Source: Tetrapyrgos nigripes (lineage: Eukaryota > Basidiomycota > Agaricomycetes > Agaricales > Campanellaceae). From it: a stretch of 64,000 nt of DNA. A program made the position numbers and the translations under genes. Under the pieces are notes generated by a model. It saw only the letters and a program-made list of their open reading frames with translations. It was not told the DNA's origin and did no database searches. The stretch covers positions 62,001 through 126,000 of the forward strand of contig JAACJM010000195.1 in assembly GCA_013368315.1 (NCBI GenBank), in the 5' to 3' direction. Of the stretch, positions 34,583-64,000 are shown in pieces (the first letter of the stretch is position 1; each line of letters starts with the position of its first letter).

Positions 34583-35401
34583 TCAATCATCCAATGTCAT
34601 TTCCTCGATGCGTCTCCTGACATGCCTCTCCAATACATTAACATGACTCCCTTCGGTGGCGCTATCGTAATTCGATTCGGATGAACTCTCGTCATCATCA
34701 TCCGAATGATCATAGCCTACTTTGCGTTTAGTTCCATTCAAAACCCCTTTATAAGCACTTAATGATCGTTCCGCCACGTCCTTTTCCTCAATTGCAAACT
34801 GGAGGAAAGCATGAGTAAAAATGAAGTGAAAAGATAATTTGAAACGCGCCTGTCTATGTCTCATATCCAAAAGTGTTAACGATCTCAATATACCAATCAG
34901 TTTTGTCTTCTGGCCTCCTGCCTGAGGGATCATAGCGATTGAAGCCTGGACTTCAACAATATCTCCAGTTCGGAAAGCAACAGGATCGGTGGGCTTCATC
35001 CTGGAAATGTATTAGTACTAGAACTGGTATATTCCACATTGCCAAACGTACCTGCCCTCTGGTCTCGAAGAGCTGGGAACATGCTGGTAAAATTTAACAA
35101 CATTTTCCTCACAATGGATATAATCCTCGTTTGTTAGTCCAGCGAGGATTCCGTTCGGATCTTCCTGAGCGTTGAAAGGTAGTGCTTCTGCTTGTAATGC
35201 ATGTCTGCGTGGAGTAAAATACCTGGAACCGAAATGTCAGCGATCACTATGCATACATCATGAATGTTTTCTTGCCGATTGCTAAAATTTAGAGCAATGT
35301 CACCTTGATAACTGGAGAGAAGACCGTTTCCATCAAGTTTCCCCTCTGGAACACGCCTTTCACACATATAATATACCAATTTGATTGATTCTGCGGTTGC
35401 A
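34583..35401 (-). pseudogene. Interrupted conserved hypothetical gene, 3' half
   Basis: Exons on the minus strand from the transposon border give AESIKLVYYMCERRVPEGKL, then HALQAEALPFNAQEDPNGIL, LTNEDYIHCEENVVKFYQHV, then FRTGDIVEVQASIAMI and LRSLTLLDMRHRQ, ending with an acidic Ser-rich tail (SDDDDESSSESNYDS) and a stop at 34583. Phrases such as FRxGDIVEVQ are typical of a repeated mushroom family without known function. The frame joins exactly to the 5' half at 41871-42560 once the element and one 7-bp duplication are removed. Apart from the insertion I see no damage, so the insertion looks recent. Confidence 0.7.
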
Positions 35402-35471
35402 TAGCGTCGGCGGGAAACGCAAGCTTACATCCTGGACTCGCGTGTCACACGTCCGGTAACCTCGGTCCAGA
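35402..35471 (+). repeat. Left terminal inverted repeat of the kinase-carrying element
   Basis: About 70 bp, pairing with 41793-41870. The outer 25 bp are perfect, then blocks ATCCTGGACTCGCG and CCGGTAAC are conserved, separated by a diverged 10-bp spacer. Conserved blocks with a variable spacer suggest two protein-binding sites. Confidence 0.9.
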
Positions 35472-35749
35472 TGTCAATCAAGCCCCTATTCTTGTATGTA
35501 GTATGTATCCTATATATCATACCGACTCAACATAGTTAAGCATCTCCTACATAGGGAGTAGTTTGTGCAGCCTTCTGAGCTTAAGAGTTCATAGAGATTC
35601 CTTGACGCAGGGAGCTTGTGTGTGTGATATTGATATACATTGCCGCATGGTGAAAGCATGTTGGGTGGTTGATCAGATCTTATGCTGCATGCACGCATGG
35701 CAGGAGCATATAAGTAACGACGTTAAAGCTTTAAAAGCGCCTGTTTGCA

Positions 35750-36184
35750 ATGGCAACACCCACTGTGTGCTACTCAGCTGAAGTACCCGGTGATGTCGGA
35801 TGTGGGCAGAACTTTCCGCGAAAAATGACTTCCGGTCTCTGTGACCGATGCACATTGTGGAATATGTTGAAGGACAAGTCTGATGGGTTTGAGACTTTGT
35901 CGGTAAGCCTACAGACCACTTTATATCTTGAAAAGTTGTTCAGTGTTATAACGACGATATAGGGATATAATCAATGCATAGATTGTGGTGCTGTAGAAAT
36001 GGCAATGCAAAACAGTGACGGATGGCGATGTTCTGAGTGCATGGAAGGTGAGTTGGATTATGCATTCATACTCTCAGAAGCTATATATGCTAACAAGTAT
36101 TCAGAGCTGAGGGCGGCCAAAGTCCTACGCATTGCGAATGAAGTCAGGAGTGGCGCATGGGAAGCGCGCATGAGACGAAATTAA
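35750..36184 (+). CDS. Small Cys-rich (zinc-ribbon-like) protein, 105 aa, related to the kinase N-terminus
   Basis: Three exons (35750-35902, 35963-36047, 36105-36184) with standard splice sites encode MATPTVCYSAEVPGDVGCGQ... The first module has Cys18, Cys31 and Cys34 in FPRKMTSGLCDRC. The kinase 2 kb away has Cys20, Cys33 and Cys36 in FPNKKSPGLCVRC, the same spacing. The second module CIDC-x14-CSEC corresponds to the kinase's CTGC-x11-CGMC. The protein ends after a short basic helix (IANEVRSGAWEARMRR), so it is the Cys-rich part without a kinase. It converges tail to tail with the kinase gene, 125 bp apart. Metal binding is inferred from Cys spacing. It may compete with the kinase for partners, but that is speculation. 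Confidence 0.75.
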
Positions 36185-36309
36185 ATAAAGAACTGATTAT
36201 TATAGAAAAATCTCGAACATTGGGACTATAGATATCAATGGTTGAATACATACGATCAAAAAGGATAGATAAATGCTTATGGTAGGAGAAGATTCGGAAG
36301 ATATATGTC

Positions 36310-38770
36310 TCAAGCTTCATCTTCATTCTCACTTTCCCCACTCTGAGTGGCACAACGCCGACTACGCTTGGTCCGCTGGCTCGTGGTAGGCTTACTGCGA
36401 TGTTTTTCCTTCTCGATCATCAATTCCTTCATACCAATCTCAGTGCAGATGCGGTTGTCAGTGTGGTTTTTGATGAACTCTTCGAGTCCTTCGTAGCCAT
36501 GATCGCCGGGACCGCTGTCACTATGGAACCAGGTCAGAAGAAAGAAAAATAAATTACGCATTGACGAGTTAGTGATCACTTACCCTTCTCTTGTGTGTGT
36601 CATAGCATCAAACAGCACTTGACCATGTTCAGTAGGAGATCCTTCAAAATTTTAATGAATTCTATAGATCAGAGACACAAACATGGAAATAAGATACCTT
36701 GCAAGTCAACGAAGACCATTTTTCCATGACTCCAGAAAAGGGAAAAGTGTGCGAACGCAGCCATTGTCATGAAAGGGAGTGTGTTGCGTTTTACTTGTGT
36801 CATTGTGCCTGAGTACTTCGTGACCTCAGTAGTACGGCGAGGCTCAATGAGCCAAATTACTCGGAGCGGTTCCAGATCAGCTGATTCTGGTTCATACATT
36901 TCTTGCATATAGCGATCAGCAGTGACACCAGACAAAGTAGAGGGTGTATCCTTTTCGACGATCTCTTCAGCAAGATAAGCATCGGTGAAAGAAAAGTCTA
37001 AAAATAAGGTGAGCTATCACTCTGAGAGACGATGAAGAATGATACTTACCTTTACAGTAATCAACTCCATCCTGTTCACAGACTTGCTTGAAGATGTCCC
37101 AGAAGAATTTACCCCGATGAAGGATGCGAAGTTCTGATTCAAGCGCCCAGCTATCATAGTGCATATTGTATGGGTTACTCATTCGTTTGAATACCATCTG
37201 TTCAGAAACCCTGATGAGGCCCTTTGGAAGTGATAAGCTTCGTAACCCAAATGAATGAAGTATATCAATACTCACTGGAAAGACAGTCTTTGTCAAGCCT
37301 GAGCCAATCGAAGCATCAGACACCACTGCCTCTACTACCTCACCTCCGTCCCAATCGACATCAATTTCACCTTCCTCCTGCTCCTGAATCTGAGCAATAC
37401 GAAGTTTCATAGTGGTGGATGAAGGGAAGCGTGTACAGCTCTTGATTTTCAAAACTGCACTGCCCTTTTTTCCATAACTCGATACGAGTGGTGCTACATG
37501 ATAGTTAGCTAAATCCAAATCCCAATGTTGTAAGACTTACCGTTGCGTTTGGATGGCATTGAACCAGCCTCACTGTCATCAAGACGTCTTTTGGCTCGTG
37601 CAGAACCACCCAGAGCTTGAGGAAGCTCCACTCCGAGCCGGGTCTCCATCTTGATTAGAACATGATATGAGTTTCATAGATAATTGGAAATTTCGATTTT
37701 CATACCTTTGGCGCATCTACAATAAGCCAAAGATGTATATGTTGACCATTTGTTTGACGGGGACTCGGATTTTTCTTGGTTTGATCAGCGAGTGAGACAA
37801 GATTCTTCAGAGGAAAGCCGTCCATGGCAAGATGAACGTCATAAAGATTGCCAACAGTACCATGCTCGGTGTTTCCAATCAGGGCAACATTCTGAGGCCA
37901 ACGCAAATTGACTTCATCGCTACATGCAAAGTCGGATATCCATGTAATGAGTGAAGAATGTGTGCTAAAGATAGAATGATACGTACTATTGCATACTTCC
38001 GGGAGCTGAGTTACGCCATTGTGCATTGAAGCGATCGACAAAAATCTTTTTGACATCTAATAACAAAATGAGGATATTCACACTGAAGTAGAGAGATCAA
38101 TCATACCTGAGACTGAGTCATTAGCATCAAAAGTCATGATATCATTAGGGAAGGTGACCAGAGGCTTCTCGGGTGTGGCTAAACGTGCGTGAATGAGGAT
38201 AGTACGGCCACTGCCAGATTGTCCAGCCCGGAAAGCAGACATCTCAGAGGCCGGAGACAAGGCTGCTGGAGTGGAGATGGCATTCATCTGGGCTTGTTTC
38301 TGTTTTGCTGCTTGCATCGAGGCAGTAAAATTGGTCGACATACTATTTGCGGCAGCATTTGACATTGTACCTGACTGAGATATGGTAGGTGTTGGGATGG
38401 GAAGCGGAGTGGGAGCTAGAGATATGCAGTTGAAAGAAAAGTCTTCAACGTAGAAAAAATCAATCGTACCTGCAAGCTGTTTGCACATTCCACACAGTGG
38501 TTCACGTAGATTGCGACCAATCTGGCCACAACCAGTACATTGTGCTATTTCCTAAAAAAAATCCTATTATGTCAATACTGATCATGGTAATGGGATGATG
38601 AGAATATGTACCTTGGCCTCCTGTGCTTTCACCGGGTCATCGGTAGACTTAGCAATGAGCTCACATCGGACACAAAGCCCAGGTGACTTCTTGTTAGGAA
38701 AGAAACCAGAGCAACCATCGCCAGGACTAGAACCTTGACAAGAGGCGCATGGATTCTCAGAAGCAGACAT
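36310..38770 (-). CDS. Alpha-type (atypical) protein kinase with N-terminal Cys-rich module, 651 aa
   Basis: Ten exons with consistent phases (38612-38770, 38470-38551, 38107-38415, 37987-38056, 37706-37919, 37541-37649, 37050-37493, 36698-36997, 36584-36641, 36310-36520) give 651 codons. Residues 1-80 hold two Cys-rich modules (CASC..C..CVRC; CTGCG..CGMC). A Ser/Gln/Ala-rich linker follows, then a conserved middle domain (NVALIGNTEHGTVGNLYDVH). The alpha-kinase domain covers about 366-600: Lys418 in VFKRMSN as candidate ATP-binding lysine, WLIEPRR, KYSGT, AAFAHFSLFWSHGKMVFVDL with the candidate catalytic Asp, and the Gly-rich GDSGPGDHGYEG (about 582-593). The tail is basic (TSQRTKRSRRC) and may be a nuclear signal. 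Alpha-kinases phosphorylate Ser/Thr and are strongly expanded in mushrooms. Here the gene lies wholly inside a transposon. I see no disabling change. Confidence 0.9.
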
Positions 38771-39280
38771 GAAAGCGATAATGGACGAGATTGGATGGGT
38801 AGCAGAAAGCTGATCTTGGAAGGCCTTATATATCGTAAAATCACAGGAAAAAAAAAGGAAAAAAAGCAAGGAAAGAAACGGCCGCTGAAGCACCTATGGG
38901 ACCGCTGTGCGGGCTTGCCAAACTAGTGTTGTCGAATTTGAGTCTGTAAGCGTAAAATACGAACCTGTAGACTGCCCTGAGTCTGCCGAACCTTGAGCCC
39001 AAGCGGTGAATATATTTCTGAATTTTCAACGTCTACGGCCGTTGAATCTTACGTTGAGCTCAGTCCAACTCGCAAGGGTAGCAGGAGTCAGAGCAAACTG
39101 GGAAGTACGTTGAAGGTATTTTGAAGCAATACTGAATGGAGTTTAAAAGCTCCGATCGAATTTTAAACGGCGACTGTGGCGTTACTGCGGGCACATGGTT
39201 TCTGCAAGCTTAAAAGCAAGCCTTCACATTTGTGCTCACCAGTCTTTCTTCGTCAATCACCAGGGAGAGCTCCATATGCT

Positions 39281-40918
39281 ATGGCTTCGAATCCAAGTGG
39301 AAAAAATCAGCACAATAACGGACCCCGTCAGTATCCATCTATAGAGATTGATACCATTCTGATTCTCTCCCTCTTAGGCCCTCCCGATGAACAGCTTCGA
39401 AATGAGCTCATGAGTCTTGCAGTACATGAAGGCCTCAAATATTCGGAAATACGTGCAGCTTTGGCCAAGAAGTTCAACTACCACATCGGGTATGTATACA
39501 TAATTTCTCCTTGGAATTACACCTTTCTAATGTTCAATTCAGAGACCGTACCCTTTCAAACTTGCTCTGGAGACTTGATATCCCGACGACAAGACGTAAC
39601 GGAAAGAAGCTTTCCGAGGGTCTCAAGACATTCTTGGTTGTTGACAAACTTGAAGGTGACCCATATCATCGGCGCAGCGCAGTATCCATACAATCCTCCT
39701 TACGACAAGAGATGACACCTATCCCTAGGTAAGCCTCGTGCTCTAGCTCTGATTTTATTTATAGAGAAATCTCATCTTCTCTTGCTATGCGCTAGGGATA
39801 CTGTTCGACGCATTCAGAAAGAAAATGAAGATCCAGTTTATCGACTTCTCCGAGCTCCTTCTGGCCAGAAATTCAAAATACCTCGTCGTCCACTTTTAGT
39901 CATAGGCCCTTATCAGCAAATCCATAGCGATGGCCATGAAAAGCTGTCCGCTTCGGGGCTGGATATGGGCGGAGTTGGCATACCTATATACGGATTTCGG
40001 CAACATGTCGGTCACATTCCGATGCTTGTAGTAGTGCCTGATGCACGGCAAGCAGACATTATTGGCCATCTCCATTTGGACTTGATTGAGAGTTGTGGCT
40101 ACAGTACGTTTCTATCTGTTGACTTGATATTTGCCTCAATGATTGCTGATAACGATGGTAGATATTCCTGTACAAATTACAGTGGACAAAGGTTCAGAGA
40201 CTGGAGAGATGTATGCTCAGCAAGTCGCACTCCGGTGAGTATGAAATTTGATTCATCGTGTTTGCTTTCATTCTCAAATACTGTCAGCGAGGCTTTCAAT
40301 CGAGAAGAATTCCAAGATCTTCACGAGTGGCCGGCCTTTGTCGCTGTTCCCAGTACCCGCAACATTGTGGTGGAAGTAATGTGGTATTGGTTCCGACGCT
40401 TTAACGGGAGAGATCTCCGTGAAATTCTGTGTGAAGGGAAGTCAAACGGATATTTTCATGCACACAAGCAGGATCACATGTAAGTCAAAAATTTCACCTT
40501 GCTTCGTCTACGCATGCCTGACTAGAATGATAGTGATTTATTTCATTGGCTATTCTCCAAGATTGTCCAGGGCTGCTTGGACGCTTTTTGCATTTACTGG
40601 AATGCGCATCGGGTTAGGAAGCAGGTCAATTCATCTTTCCCATCTGGCACTACTCCTAACCAGGTGATGCGCTGTCCTGAGCAATATGGATTGAGAGACT
40701 GCAGGATACCAGTTCATCCTAAATCTGTCAATGCGTTGCGGAGCCGGTTGCCTCCGAGAGATGAGCTGTTGCGATGGGCCAGCAATGAATTTGAGGCAAG
40801 GGTCAGAAGGGCTTATCAGGAGATTGGGACTCCTGACCTCTCTGCTGGAATGAAGTCTGCTCTTCAAGGATGGGAGATTTTCAGGCAGTTGTCTGTCAAG
40901 TTGGATGCCTCCCAGTAG
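39281..40918 (+). CDS. DDE integrase-like protein (candidate transposase), 450 aa
   Basis: Six exons (39281-39489, 39543-39728, 39796-40103, 40162-40234, 40288-40479, 40534-40918) give 451 codons in phase. ATG at 39281 (MASNPSGKNQ) is the first in frame. The N-terminus looks like a helix-turn-helix (LMSLAVHEGLKYSEIRAALA), followed by a second DNA-binding-like segment (LSNLLWRLDIPTTRRNGKKL). The integrase-like core has Asp177 in QIHSDGHEKLS, GVGIPIYGFRQH, Asp243 in TVDKGSETGEM and Glu288 in NIVVEVMWYWFRR, spacing compatible with a DDE triad. The C-terminal part has LFHWLFSKIVQGCLDAF and YWNAHRVRKQ. It resembles the putative integrase-core family common in mushroom genomes. Being the only recombinase inside the element, it probably mobilises it. 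Upstream of ATG the frame is open but has no other ATG. Confidence 0.88.
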
Positions 40919-41792
40919 CTATCCATTGATTCTCGTATTTATTTAAGTTGTAAGGATCTTTGAATGAAGAGTCCATGTTTATTATGTATATCATATCTGA
41001 GAGATCATATATCCATTCAAGAATCTCCAGAGATTTCGCAAAATTCGTGGTTAAAGCTTGAACTTGCGAGGTCTCAGATCAGCATAATTACTACATGACC
41101 CCTGAATATTGTCTTTTCCTGGGCTGCACAAAAATGTATATGTATCTAACCCTGCCGAACATCGTAGACACGGCAGTATCTTCCCTGATCACATCGTCAA
41201 GTGACAATAGATAATACTTATAGATACACAATGTGATAGAATTGAGGGCCATTGCGCGTACTTACCATAGGCAGACGCGTTTTGGACGCTTGTCATGAAT
41301 TGTTGATAGAACGAGCGATATCGGTGTCGTATAGAGCGCGCAGATAAGTTGCCGCCTTCACGGTGTGTGATCCACAAAGATTCCAAGCGTTGAAATGATC
41401 TCCCCCGGTGCTGATGGTACTTATCGTCAAGGGAGTCATCACGCCAAGTCGTTTGTGGCTGTACTCGTATATCCGTTTTTGGAACCTCCGGCTTTCCGAG
41501 CGCGTTCTACTCTCCATCCACAGTCCTGCCACTTTCTTTATATGCATCCAAATCATCGAAATTCTTAGCCCAGCCAGTATCCCTTTCCATCCCGGATATT
41601 TCTCGAAAATTTAATATAATTATTAATTATAATATCCCAATTTATTTAATAATTTTCTGAGGTTAGTAATCGCCGGTACGTACAACATCTGAGTTTACAA
41701 CATACTGCATGAGTATCCTCCTCGTACGAGACAGCTCTGTATGTTAGATACATACTACATAAGTACATGAATAGGGGCATGATTCCTATCAT

Positions 41793-41870
41793 GGACCGAG
41801 TTGGGGCCGAAGTTACCGGATTTGATGGGCGCGAGTCCAGGATCCAAGCTTGCGTTTCCCGCCGACGCTA
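41793..41870 (-). repeat. Right terminal inverted repeat of the kinase-carrying element
   Basis: Reverse complement of the left end; outer 25 bp identical. It is 8-10 bp longer in the inner part (extra TCGGCCCCAAC-like sequence before TCGGTCC). Confidence 0.9.
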
Positions 41871-42560
41871 GGTTGCAGCAAATGTTGAACTTCCAAGACC
41901 AGTGATTTGGATTTCTTGACGCAAAAAACTCGCCACCTTACGTCTTTGATTATCGCTGCAATCACATTTAGATATCAGAGAATATGTATATGATAAGCCA
42001 AACTTCTCACTTACGGCAAGGAAAGAACGGGAGGTATACGTTTGTCTGAAAGTATACCCTGCATTGTGAAAACAATCTCCTTGAAGGATCCGTTGGTTTG
42101 CCTGCTCAATCGGGGAAGTGAAGGAACACCATATGTAGGAACGGACAAAGCGCTCGTCCAATTCGGTGTCTACAAACGCAAGAGGTAAGATGTAGATATC
42201 ACAGGTTCATATTATCCAAATAGTCATGCTCACCTCAGTCAATCCAACCGGATTCAACCCACCATTACGAGCTTTCTCACGATGACAGGTCCACTGCTCG
42301 AGGTCTTTCTCTGGATAACACGTTAAATACATTCTCAAGCGTAACAACATTAGCACTCACTCGCAGCTTCCACTGGGTAATATTCGTTCATCCTTACCAA
42401 GTAGAAATGAATGATAGTGAGGATGTTTGAAGAATATACTCAGGATACTTGAACTTAAATAGTAAAGTTGCAATATACCAAATCACAGTGAAACATCAAT
42501 TCGAAACCAGTTGGAATCCCTACATGTAAGATCAATAGAATATAGCTCAGCGAACCTGTG
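41871..42560 (-). pseudogene. Interrupted conserved hypothetical gene, 5' half
   Basis: Minus-strand exons, each with normal splice sites, include RFAELYSIDLTCRDSNWFRI (about 42490-42555), DLEQWTCHREKARNGGLNPV, LDERFVRSYIWCSFTSPIEQ, LQGDCFHNAGYTF and VASFLRQEIQITGLGSSTFA, then run into the transposon border at 41871. The start of the gene is not resolved; more exons may lie up to the second element at 42957. The insertion places a stop within a few codons of the transposon end. Confidence 0.65.
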
Positions 42561-61888: not shown

Positions 61889-64000
61889 ACTCCAGGATGT
61901 AGGTGTCGTATGATGATTTTGAGACTCACCTTTTATACTACGCTAGGTCTGGACTATACGACGACCACAATTCGATTACAATCAATTGCTGAGGCTTTTG
62001 CTCTGTCATCCACAACAAAGCCTCGTATTATCAAGCAGCGAAGTGGAAAACCCCACAATTCAATGTCTAGCGCGCCATTCCGGTCATACATGAGCTGATG
62101 CTTGGCACCAAGAGCCGCTATATCATCCATAACGAAGATTGGTATTATAATCAGCACAATTAGTGAACGAGCCCAACGATTTCGGATCAATTCCCTAAAA
62201 GACTTAGCGCATCCTCCACGTCGTACGTGGTCTGATAGTGATATGCTTTTAGAGTCAGTCAGGCCAATGGAGGTCTATGTTTTTTCAATCCTCAAACACG
62301 AAAAAATGCCTAACGGATGGCAAACCTGGCTTCTCGAGGAGCGGCATCGAAAGGCAAATGCAGACGACGGTTGACAAAGGCTTGATATGCCGTCAAGCGT
62401 ATGCTGGGCCTATAGTAAAAAAAGGTAGACCTGGGCCAAGACAAGCAAAGGGCTTCGTAATATGTTTGTATCACGATTGGGAGTGATTGGCACAGCTATC
62501 GTTATTTAAGTCGTGAACCTCGGTCCTCAGTAATTTGCGGGTAATAGGATCCAATACAAGATGGCTTGGAATCTAGAACATAGAGGTCGGTCAGACTATG
62601 CTTGTCCATGCAAGAGCGAGCTCAAGGACACACAGTAATACATATCCTTCCGGCACCCTTCTCCAAAATCCCAGGTTCTTCTTGAAGGGTCCTCCATCTA
62701 ACGGCAATTTGACGTCGAGACCTCCGGAAGACCGCTGCGGTCCAATATTGAATGCGCAGACTACTTCCCAAGTATACATCCACGTACAACAAGCATGTTG
62801 GAGGATAGGAAGGTCGGATGTAGAGTTGAACAGAGTTGGTGGGACGAAAGTGCAAGGAGAAAGAAGCGTGAGATATGTACGGCGCAGGCTTCCATTCACG
62901 GGCGGCGACGCGATCCAAGAAAGAAAGAGAAGCTGTCATCGGGTGAAGTAGAAAGGAACCATCTATAAGCGTCTGTCATTGAGCAACGATGGTCCGCCTA
63001 GGCTTGCGCGATGGAGAAGTGAAGGCTCTCAAGAAGGTTGCCAACAAGTCTCACCGGGCTCGACGTGACAGGACGTTTGGCATGACGGTGCGACGATGAA
63101 CGAAAACACGAAGTGGAGATATGGAGACGATGAGTTGAAAAGCGCTGGATGGTATTGCAAAGCAATTCGGTTCGAGGAGCAGGTTTCCATGGCCATCGCG
63201 CGAGCATTAGGGATCTAGATGTAAAAGATACGGCCCTGATACTATTATCAACAGCGACGTCAAATACGCACCGGTACCACCATGCTTGCATTAGCATGAG
63301 TCTACTATTAGCTTCAGCAGGTCTCGGCATCTCACTTTGGGTTCTTGAATAGGATGGCATGAGGACCAGCCTAGAGTTGCGACATAAATCCTCATAAACC
63401 TGGGGCAAATTATCACTGACAGAACATGCCAAGCCCAATGCAACTCTGTTGTTGACGATCGGTAAATCCACTGAGCCAACGCCTAACGAGCACTGGCAGG
63501 TAAAGTCGCCTGTAGAAAGTTGTCGAGTAATAGACGAGGCGAGATGACAGAGAGTTTGGCACGGCGTAGTGCCATGAGACTGGCGTCCAACCTGGATTTT
63601 TTGCGATGCAAAACAGCGAGGGATCTACCTGATAAAAGTAAGATCGTGATATACAGCAAGAATCAGCTCAGTGACGAACCCGTCAAACGTATTCTTCTTG
63701 CTCACTTCGTCTCCCTGGGTCCCATTACCTCGCGCAGCCGAAAGCATGCTTTGAGACGAAGCATTCTCTCCCCCGCTTCAATATCTCCTTACTATACCAA
63801 CAGACTAATCCAGGAGACAGCACCTTGTCTTTAGCACCAGTCCAGTCCTTCTGCGCACTTGAGTCCATAGGTAGCCAACGAGATGCGAGAGAAGAAAGCA
63901 GAAAGCTCTTCATTCCTGCTGGGGATGTCTAGCATGCCGATATAAGAAGGCGGGAGTCTAGATGACGAAAGTTACGACCGTGATAATATAGACAAGCAAA
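61889..64000. other. No gene supported to the window end
   Basis: The first 100 bp are the hydrolase promoter. Longer open frames (62598-62951, 62622-62939, 62998-63471, 63520-63834) overlap on opposite strands and carry no motif I recognise. I see no transposon ends. Confidence 0.45.

Follow-up and report, generated by a model that had tools for sequence, protein, structure and literature searches.

The question raised by this locus is whether a protein kinase gene found inside a mobile DNA element is a passenger or a working part of it. The window, i.e. the whole stretch of 64,000 nucleotides analysed here (positions 62,001 to 126,000 of contig JAACJM010000195.1 of the basidiomycete Tetrapyrgos nigripes), contains at 35402-41870 a unit of 6,469 bp. 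An initial annotation described it as a DNA transposon carrying an alpha-kinase and a small cysteine-rich (Cys) protein as cargo. We consider it very likely that the unit is an autonomous-looking DNA transposon of the IS3EU type, with the kinase and the Cys gene as conserved components. Its borders are the following.

35395..35401, no strand: left target-site duplication GGTTGCA (from the sequence; single copy at the empty site on contig C83)
35402..35468, + strand: left terminal inverted repeat, starting TAGCGTCGGCGGGAAACGCAAGCTT, with weaker inner blocks to 35516
41804..41870, - strand: right terminal inverted repeat, with weaker inner blocks from 41740
41871..41877, no strand: right target-site duplication GGTTGCA (from the sequence; single copy at the empty site on C83)

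The terminal inverted repeats of 67 nt are 84% complementary, their outermost 25 bases are identical, and the weaker inner blocks lengthen them to about 115 nt. The termini read TAGCG...CGCTA. The inverted ends with 25 perfect outer bases and the perfect 7-bp duplication reported at first were both recovered, and an empty site can be added to them. Contig C83 has one GGTTGCA and no insert, and its flanks are 99.5% (left, 800 bp compared) and 99.7% (right, 1000 bp compared) identical to those of the window. The unit was inserted in one piece, and another contig shows its site without it, so that occupied and empty forms, which the initial annotation had suggested looking for, are found within one assembly. 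Most simply, C83 represents the other haplotype. The flanks also adjoin on C156, a more distant copy of the region (left 88%, right 81% identity). That unrelated host genes merely happen to lie between fortuitous inverted repeats has a vanishingly small probability, as this arrangement is refuted by the empty site and also opposed by the second full copy and the diverged units with the same genes described below; we found no point in its favour.

The T. nigripes assembly searched for copies amounts to 98.46 Mb in 587 contigs. A second full copy occupies another site, on C477, where it is flanked by the duplication CATAATC; over 6,470 bp it is 99.6% identical to the window unit. Together with the empty site, it bears out the view that a real DNA transposon was inserted as a unit with its alpha-kinase and Cys-rich gene. 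C434 shows the left flank, and C281 the right flank, of the C477 insertion site. Both carry a deletion of 89 bp, and the kinase is broken at the identical position in each; on C434 this position holds an insert with the same 5 bp of the element on either side. C154 and C58 are two parts of one further insertion, internally deleted, with GGCGTTG at both ends. Paired copies of the ends with 7-bp duplications were sought elsewhere in the genome and found. Among 12 fetched insertions with recognisable paired ends, ten have a perfect 7-bp duplication (window, C477, C154/C58, C91, C41, C27, C119, C122, C49 and C35), the remaining two being C37, with a 6-bp duplication, and C170, with none. This count excludes C345, which has a 191-nt outer repeat beginning TATGATTAC, and does not score C434 and C281 separately from C477, whose insertion site they share. 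It also leaves out L022 (C31 near 113 kb), which repeats C35 and has one end visible, as well as C370 and the end matches on C522, C519, C419 and C11. For C41, the scan gave other repeat pairs too, some of them higher-scoring, beside the self-complementary words CCATGG and TCCATGGA; the pair chosen is the one whose right end was also found independently.

The unit contains three genes, modelled by hand from splice sites.

35750..36184, + strand: small Cys-rich gene, 105 aa, 3 exons (35750-35902, 35963-36047, 36105-36184); hand model; paralogue of kinase exons 1-2
36310..38770, - strand: alpha-kinase gene, 633 aa, 11 exons, with a Cys module in exons 1-2 and the kinase domain at residues 392-589; hand model; PF02816, E = 3.4e-24
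39281..40918, + strand: integrase-type DDE transposase gene, 433 aa, with D160, D226 and E271, 7 exons (39281-39326, 39378-39489, 39543-39728, 39796-40103, 40162-40234, 40288-40479, 40534-40918); hand model, homologues and the fold of a homologue

All three gene structures proposed at first could be modelled, and the splice aligner used to check the models of this and the other copies found no stop or frameshift in them. The start codons of the kinase (38770) and the transposase (39281) are 510 bp apart, the two genes being in opposite orientations. The kinase domain scores 86.4 bits against PF02816, for a curated cut-off of 21.3, which places the predicted protein in the alpha-kinase family. 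The kinase had been given as intact and 651 aa long; it is indeed intact, but our model has 633 aa, and the excess of 18 residues would fit one of two 54-nt introns being retained. Its kinase domain aligns with eEF2K (eEF2 kinase) and MHCK A in stretches around DLQG, D..HT and G.G..G, and eEF2 kinase chains are its best solved relatives. In contrast to these enzymes, it has an N-terminal Cys module and a linker. The window kinase reads HTDNRIC where C170, C91 and eEF2K read H.CNRIC, with Asp for Cys at the position of what is presumably one of the zinc ligands.

Family, linkage and intact DDE residues make it probable that the 433-aa integrase-like protein moves the unit. Scoring 7,998 candidates gave at least 72 homologues, in Dendrothele, Marasmius, Mycena and other genera. 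All 44 aligned homologues keep the second aspartate and the glutamate, and at least 90% of them keep the first aspartate. Residues 1-157 of the model contain no cysteine, hence no HHCC motif lies upstream of the core. The Dendrothele homologue P0001 was modelled with AlphaFold2 as a stand-in for the spliced window transposase (mean predicted local distance difference test score, pLDDT, 88.5). The ten best solved matches to its fold are retroviral integrases, TnsB, IstA and a Tn7 transpososome chain, the best at E = 0.0064; no solved structure matched it at 0.001 or better. Viral contigs were also scanned with the transposase alignment; none of the 83 pattern matches was a relative.

How does the unit relate to known systems? 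According to the accessible text of PMC10045372, every complete IS3EU family has TA..TA termini, with duplications that are usually of 6 bp, and IS3EU and GingerRoot have an integrase-like DDE core without an upstream HHCC motif. IS3EU transposases are related to IS3/IS481-type enzymes. The window unit shares the TA..TA termini (TACC...GGTA in C91, C41, C27 and C170), the absence of an HHCC motif and an integrase-like DDE enzyme, whose D160, D226 and E271 align with the conserved columns, with weak structural E-values. It differs by its 7-bp duplication, a departure that is not absolute given the wording "usually". The word kinase is absent from the main text of that paper. As far as the accessible text of Kojima 2025 (PMC12730594) goes, in all TET+ IS3EU families a TET/JBP gene separates the oppositely oriented transposase and alpha-kinase genes; the rust families have 6-bp duplications and TAYGG..CCRTA ends, and one such family occurs in Tuber indicum. 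The likeness to the window unit is clear, with a DDE transposase and an alpha-kinase opposed inside an element with terminal inverted repeats and TA..TA ends. However, the window unit has 7-bp duplications, TAGCG..CGCTA ends and an added Cys gene, and only the 510 bp between start codons where those families carry TET/JBP. On sequence features, the unit can be placed as a 7-bp variant of kinase-bearing IS3EU. The initial annotation knew of no described element with this content. This has to be revised in part, since Kojima 2025 puts the kinase-transposase pairing in print, at least in its accessible text. The 7-bp group, the kinase-derived Cys gene and the genome-wide linkage reported below are undescribed in the literature that we searched, mostly without subscription journals, and within the same scope PMC12730594, in its accessible part, was the only source found to tie an alpha-kinase to a fungal transposon.

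Units ending in TATGG in the T. nigripes genome also have an opposed transposase and alpha-kinase. They differ from the window unit by 6-bp duplications and by a transposase that is alignable with that of the window yet only distantly related to it, in a tree of mushroom homologues and own-genome units drawn without support values. L021 (C31) is one of them, with the duplication CCACAC. Another, of 7.0 kb, is found on C160 (L041+L030) and C243 (L040+L029) in copies 99.7% identical; the C160 copy has the 6-bp duplication CGCAAC, and that of C243 matches over 4 bp only. No free Cys gene was found in L021, C160 or C243 with the window Cys protein as query. Equally scored transposase and kinase pairs of the 7.0-kb unit recur on C20, C58 and C154, and a very similar one on C163, i.e. 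six places in the genome including C160 and C243. C401 has a transposase of this type and no kinase match listed.

These relatives bear on whether the unit belongs to a superfamily separate from IS3EU, with 7-bp duplications and ends of the TA(G/C)C(G/A)TCGGCGGGA type as its defining features. Such a separation would account for the duplication length in ten of the 12 insertions, for ends unlike the TAYGG..CCRTA of rust families and for the score of the window transposase, which falls below the PF24764 cut-off. We nevertheless regard it as fairly unlikely: the TA..TA termini are those of all complete IS3EU families, the kinase layout is common to TET+ IS3EU, 40 of the 44 aligned homologues match PF24764 (at E no higher than 0.001), the protein can be aligned with those of the 6-bp TATGG units, and duplication length varies among groups related to IS3EU (PMC10045372, accessible text).

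The gene content of more distant copies is the key to the status of the kinase. In four diverged units (C345, C170, C91 and C41), the Cys gene, the kinase and the transposase have identical order and orientations, and together with the window these units form three element lineages: the window, C345, and C170/C91/C41. The intron number of the window (10/6/2 for kinase, transposase and Cys gene) is matched in eight of the 12 splice models of these units: C345 and C170 have 10/6/2, C91, which is interrupted by about 8 kb, 12/4/2, and C41 8/6/1. Rates between copies were computed with NG86 after trimming codons where local identity fell below 30%, and the kinase splice alignments of L019, L020 and partly L021/L023, which run into other sequence, were excluded. 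The nonsynonymous rate (dN) between lineages lies at 0.13-0.18 (transposase), 0.22-0.30 (kinase) and 0.17-0.36 (Cys gene). The synonymous rate (dS) is 1.1-4.5, or beyond estimation in five of seven transposase and three of seven kinase pairs. As estimated from these alignments, all three proteins appear constrained, with near-saturated synonymous sites. Because the three genes keep their order across lineages and their proteins are constrained, the kinase and the Cys gene appear to be conserved components of the element. Constraint between lineages followed by decay after insertion is the pattern that should be expected of an element's own genes. The word cargo used in the initial annotation thus undersells genes that are retained and constrained across three lineages.

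The alternative is that the kinase and the Cys gene are captured host genes, passengers recently gained by one copy. Transposons are known to capture genes, and the deletion derivatives on C119, C122, C49, C37 and C35, in which the kinase is gone and only a remnant of the transposase is left, have still spread. We judge this quite improbable in view of the same constrained trio in the same order in diverged lineages, of the distant TATGG units that also pair a transposase with an opposed alpha-kinase, and of the pairing stated for TET+ IS3EU (accessible text of Kojima 2025, PMC12730594).

Several observations weigh against an autonomous IS3EU-type element with the kinase and Cys gene as its own parts. 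The intact genes and the occupied and empty site are read from the letters of one assembly, transposition itself being unobserved. The C477 copy carries one stop in the kinase model and one in the transposase model, and at least two genes of each of the diverged units C345, C170, C91 and C41 have stops or frameshifts. The ratio of dN to dS (omega) is rough because dS is saturated or inestimable in many between-lineage pairs. Within C170/C91/C41 it is 0.47-0.91 for transposase and kinase, as in dead copies, and 0.7-2.2 for the short Cys gene, so that no sign of selection was seen among these close copies. The window transposase matches rva_4 (PF24764) at E = 0.0074 only. C170 has the ends of the family and no target duplication was found there. 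On C345 (L014, 1432-8562), the three genes lie between other outer ends, namely the 191-nt inverted repeat, and no target duplication was found at these ends; an exchange of ends or a nested insertion is possible. Within the C243 unit lies a stretch that resembles this repeat at about 75% similarity.

The Cys gene and exons 1-2 of the kinase are paralogues, a relation that the initial annotation had missed and that is read here from cysteine spacing, profiles and introns. The spacing is 12-2-21-2-11-2 in the kinase module and 12-2-21-2-14-2 in the Cys protein. A profile comparison of the two scored 41.75 (E = 8.5e-8, probability 92%), versus a mean of 2.4 and a maximum of 11.0 for 100 column shuffles and 3.3 for a reversed profile. 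In the window, intron 1 is in phase 0 after residue 51 (Cys) or 53 (kinase), and intron 2 in phase 1 after residue 79 (Cys) or 80 (kinase). Clear agreement of the intron phases is confined to the window and some of the diverged copies: Cys gene phases are 0 and 1 in C170 and C91, a single 0 in C41, and 1 and 2 in C345, whose model begins out of frame, and kinase phases are 0 and 1 in C477 and C345 and 2 and 1 in C170, the C41 kinase model leaving these two introns unresolved. As the kinase of the TATGG unit L021 starts with a similar Cys module, the free Cys copy is probably the derived state. The Cys protein as query returned no protein relatives, hence the spread of this gene is seen within the T. 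nigripes genome only.

A small protein derived from the kinase head and encoded beside the kinase might also suggest an addiction-like hold on the host, in which the kinase arrests growth or translation and the Cys protein restrains it; that eEF2 kinase chains are the best solved relatives would fit. We give this little credence, as nothing shows arrest or binding, and both the empty haplotype-like contig and derivatives whose Cys gene is broken (all five of the non-autonomous ones examined) persist.

For an IS3EU-type element with its own kinase, the following mechanism could be proposed. The N-terminal helical region of the transposase would bind the inverted ends, and D160, D226 and E271 would serve to cut and join the DNA. 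The alpha-kinase would act as an accessory enzyme of the element, its substrate being either the transposase or a host protein of silencing, repair or translation by which the element is limited. As a derivative of the N-terminal module of the kinase, the free Cys protein may compete for or share the partner of that module and thereby tune the kinase or the transposition complex. The specific roles of the kinase and the Cys protein in this scheme are tentative and somewhat doubtful.

Is the association of kinase and transposon peculiar to this unit? The genome has 38 alpha-kinase matches. With one position per cluster, 24 of them lie within 12 kb of an IS3EU-type transposase match, versus about 1.3 expected from density, and 23 at 8 kb, versus 0.9. 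C434 enters the count via another transposase, its own being 12-14 kb away across the insert. Two further kinases (C27:445921 and C154:182577) are inside units recognised by their ends, which brings to 26 of 38 the matches in or within 12 kb of IS3EU-type transposons, numbers that are inflated because haplotype duplicates (C434 and C477 at least) are included. The other 12 are without an assigned transposon, the surroundings having been fetched for one of them. The 72 PF24764 positions used, all from the matches listed, add only two at 8 kb, which indicates that the kinase link is with particular transposase groups. The genome has at least 168 rva_4 (PF24764) integrase matches, and few of those listed are near alpha-kinases; integrase-type genes without a kinase neighbour seem common. 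With three queries, the kinase was not found in the fetched 5-6 kb of each of C98, C128 and C197, where a more distant transposase is present, nor was a kinase match found in the 7.5 kb fetched of C370, which has a transposase fragment.

The initial annotation suggested that transposition would explain the expansion of alpha-kinases. The linkage of 26 of 38 matches supports this within the present genome, where such transposons appear to account for much of the large alpha-kinase set. A protein search with the kinase (7,997 pre-filtered candidates) returned only two proteins, both from T. nigripes, so that its spread is shown for this genome only. Alpha-kinases of mushrooms and rusts tend to be tallied as host genes. 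If many of them ride on a transposon lineage, kinase counts need to be re-read as transposon load. Our opinion is evenly divided on a broader reading, in which mushroom, and perhaps rust, alpha-kinases would largely be components of IS3EU-type elements, the kinase being a long-standing selected accessory and its expansion a matter of element copy number, with one lineage having evolved a free regulator from the kinase head and shifted to 7-bp target cuts. According to the accessible text of PMC4469406, rusts have a highly expanded alpha-kinase family, which Microbotryomycetes lack, and a wheat-rust domain table in the accessible part of PMC5295586 includes this family; by analogy, the rust expansion would fit the same transposon cause. 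The presence of a conserved protein kinase in a eukaryotic DNA transposon also offers a testable case of an element that controls its own movement, or its host, through phosphorylation, and the near-identical copies and the empty site make this lineage practical as a test system.

Two further observations concern the history of the copies. Between the window and C477, 18 of 20 transitions are at a CpG of either copy, and CpG sites account for 18% of the element's C and G bases. Versus the window, the proportion is 25/28 for C434, 11/13 for C154 and only 3/7 for C281. The excess of CpG transitions suggests cytosine methylation, a signal not peculiar to the element because 4 of 5 transitions in the flanks are also at CpG and C281 has only 3/7. 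Lastly, L024, L025, L026, L027 and L037+L038 form a non-autonomous family with window-type ends, in which the Cys gene is broken and a short tail of the transposase is left. Its members are about 1.75 kb long in C122 and C49, and that of C35 is split by an insert bearing terminal repeats of 371 bp.

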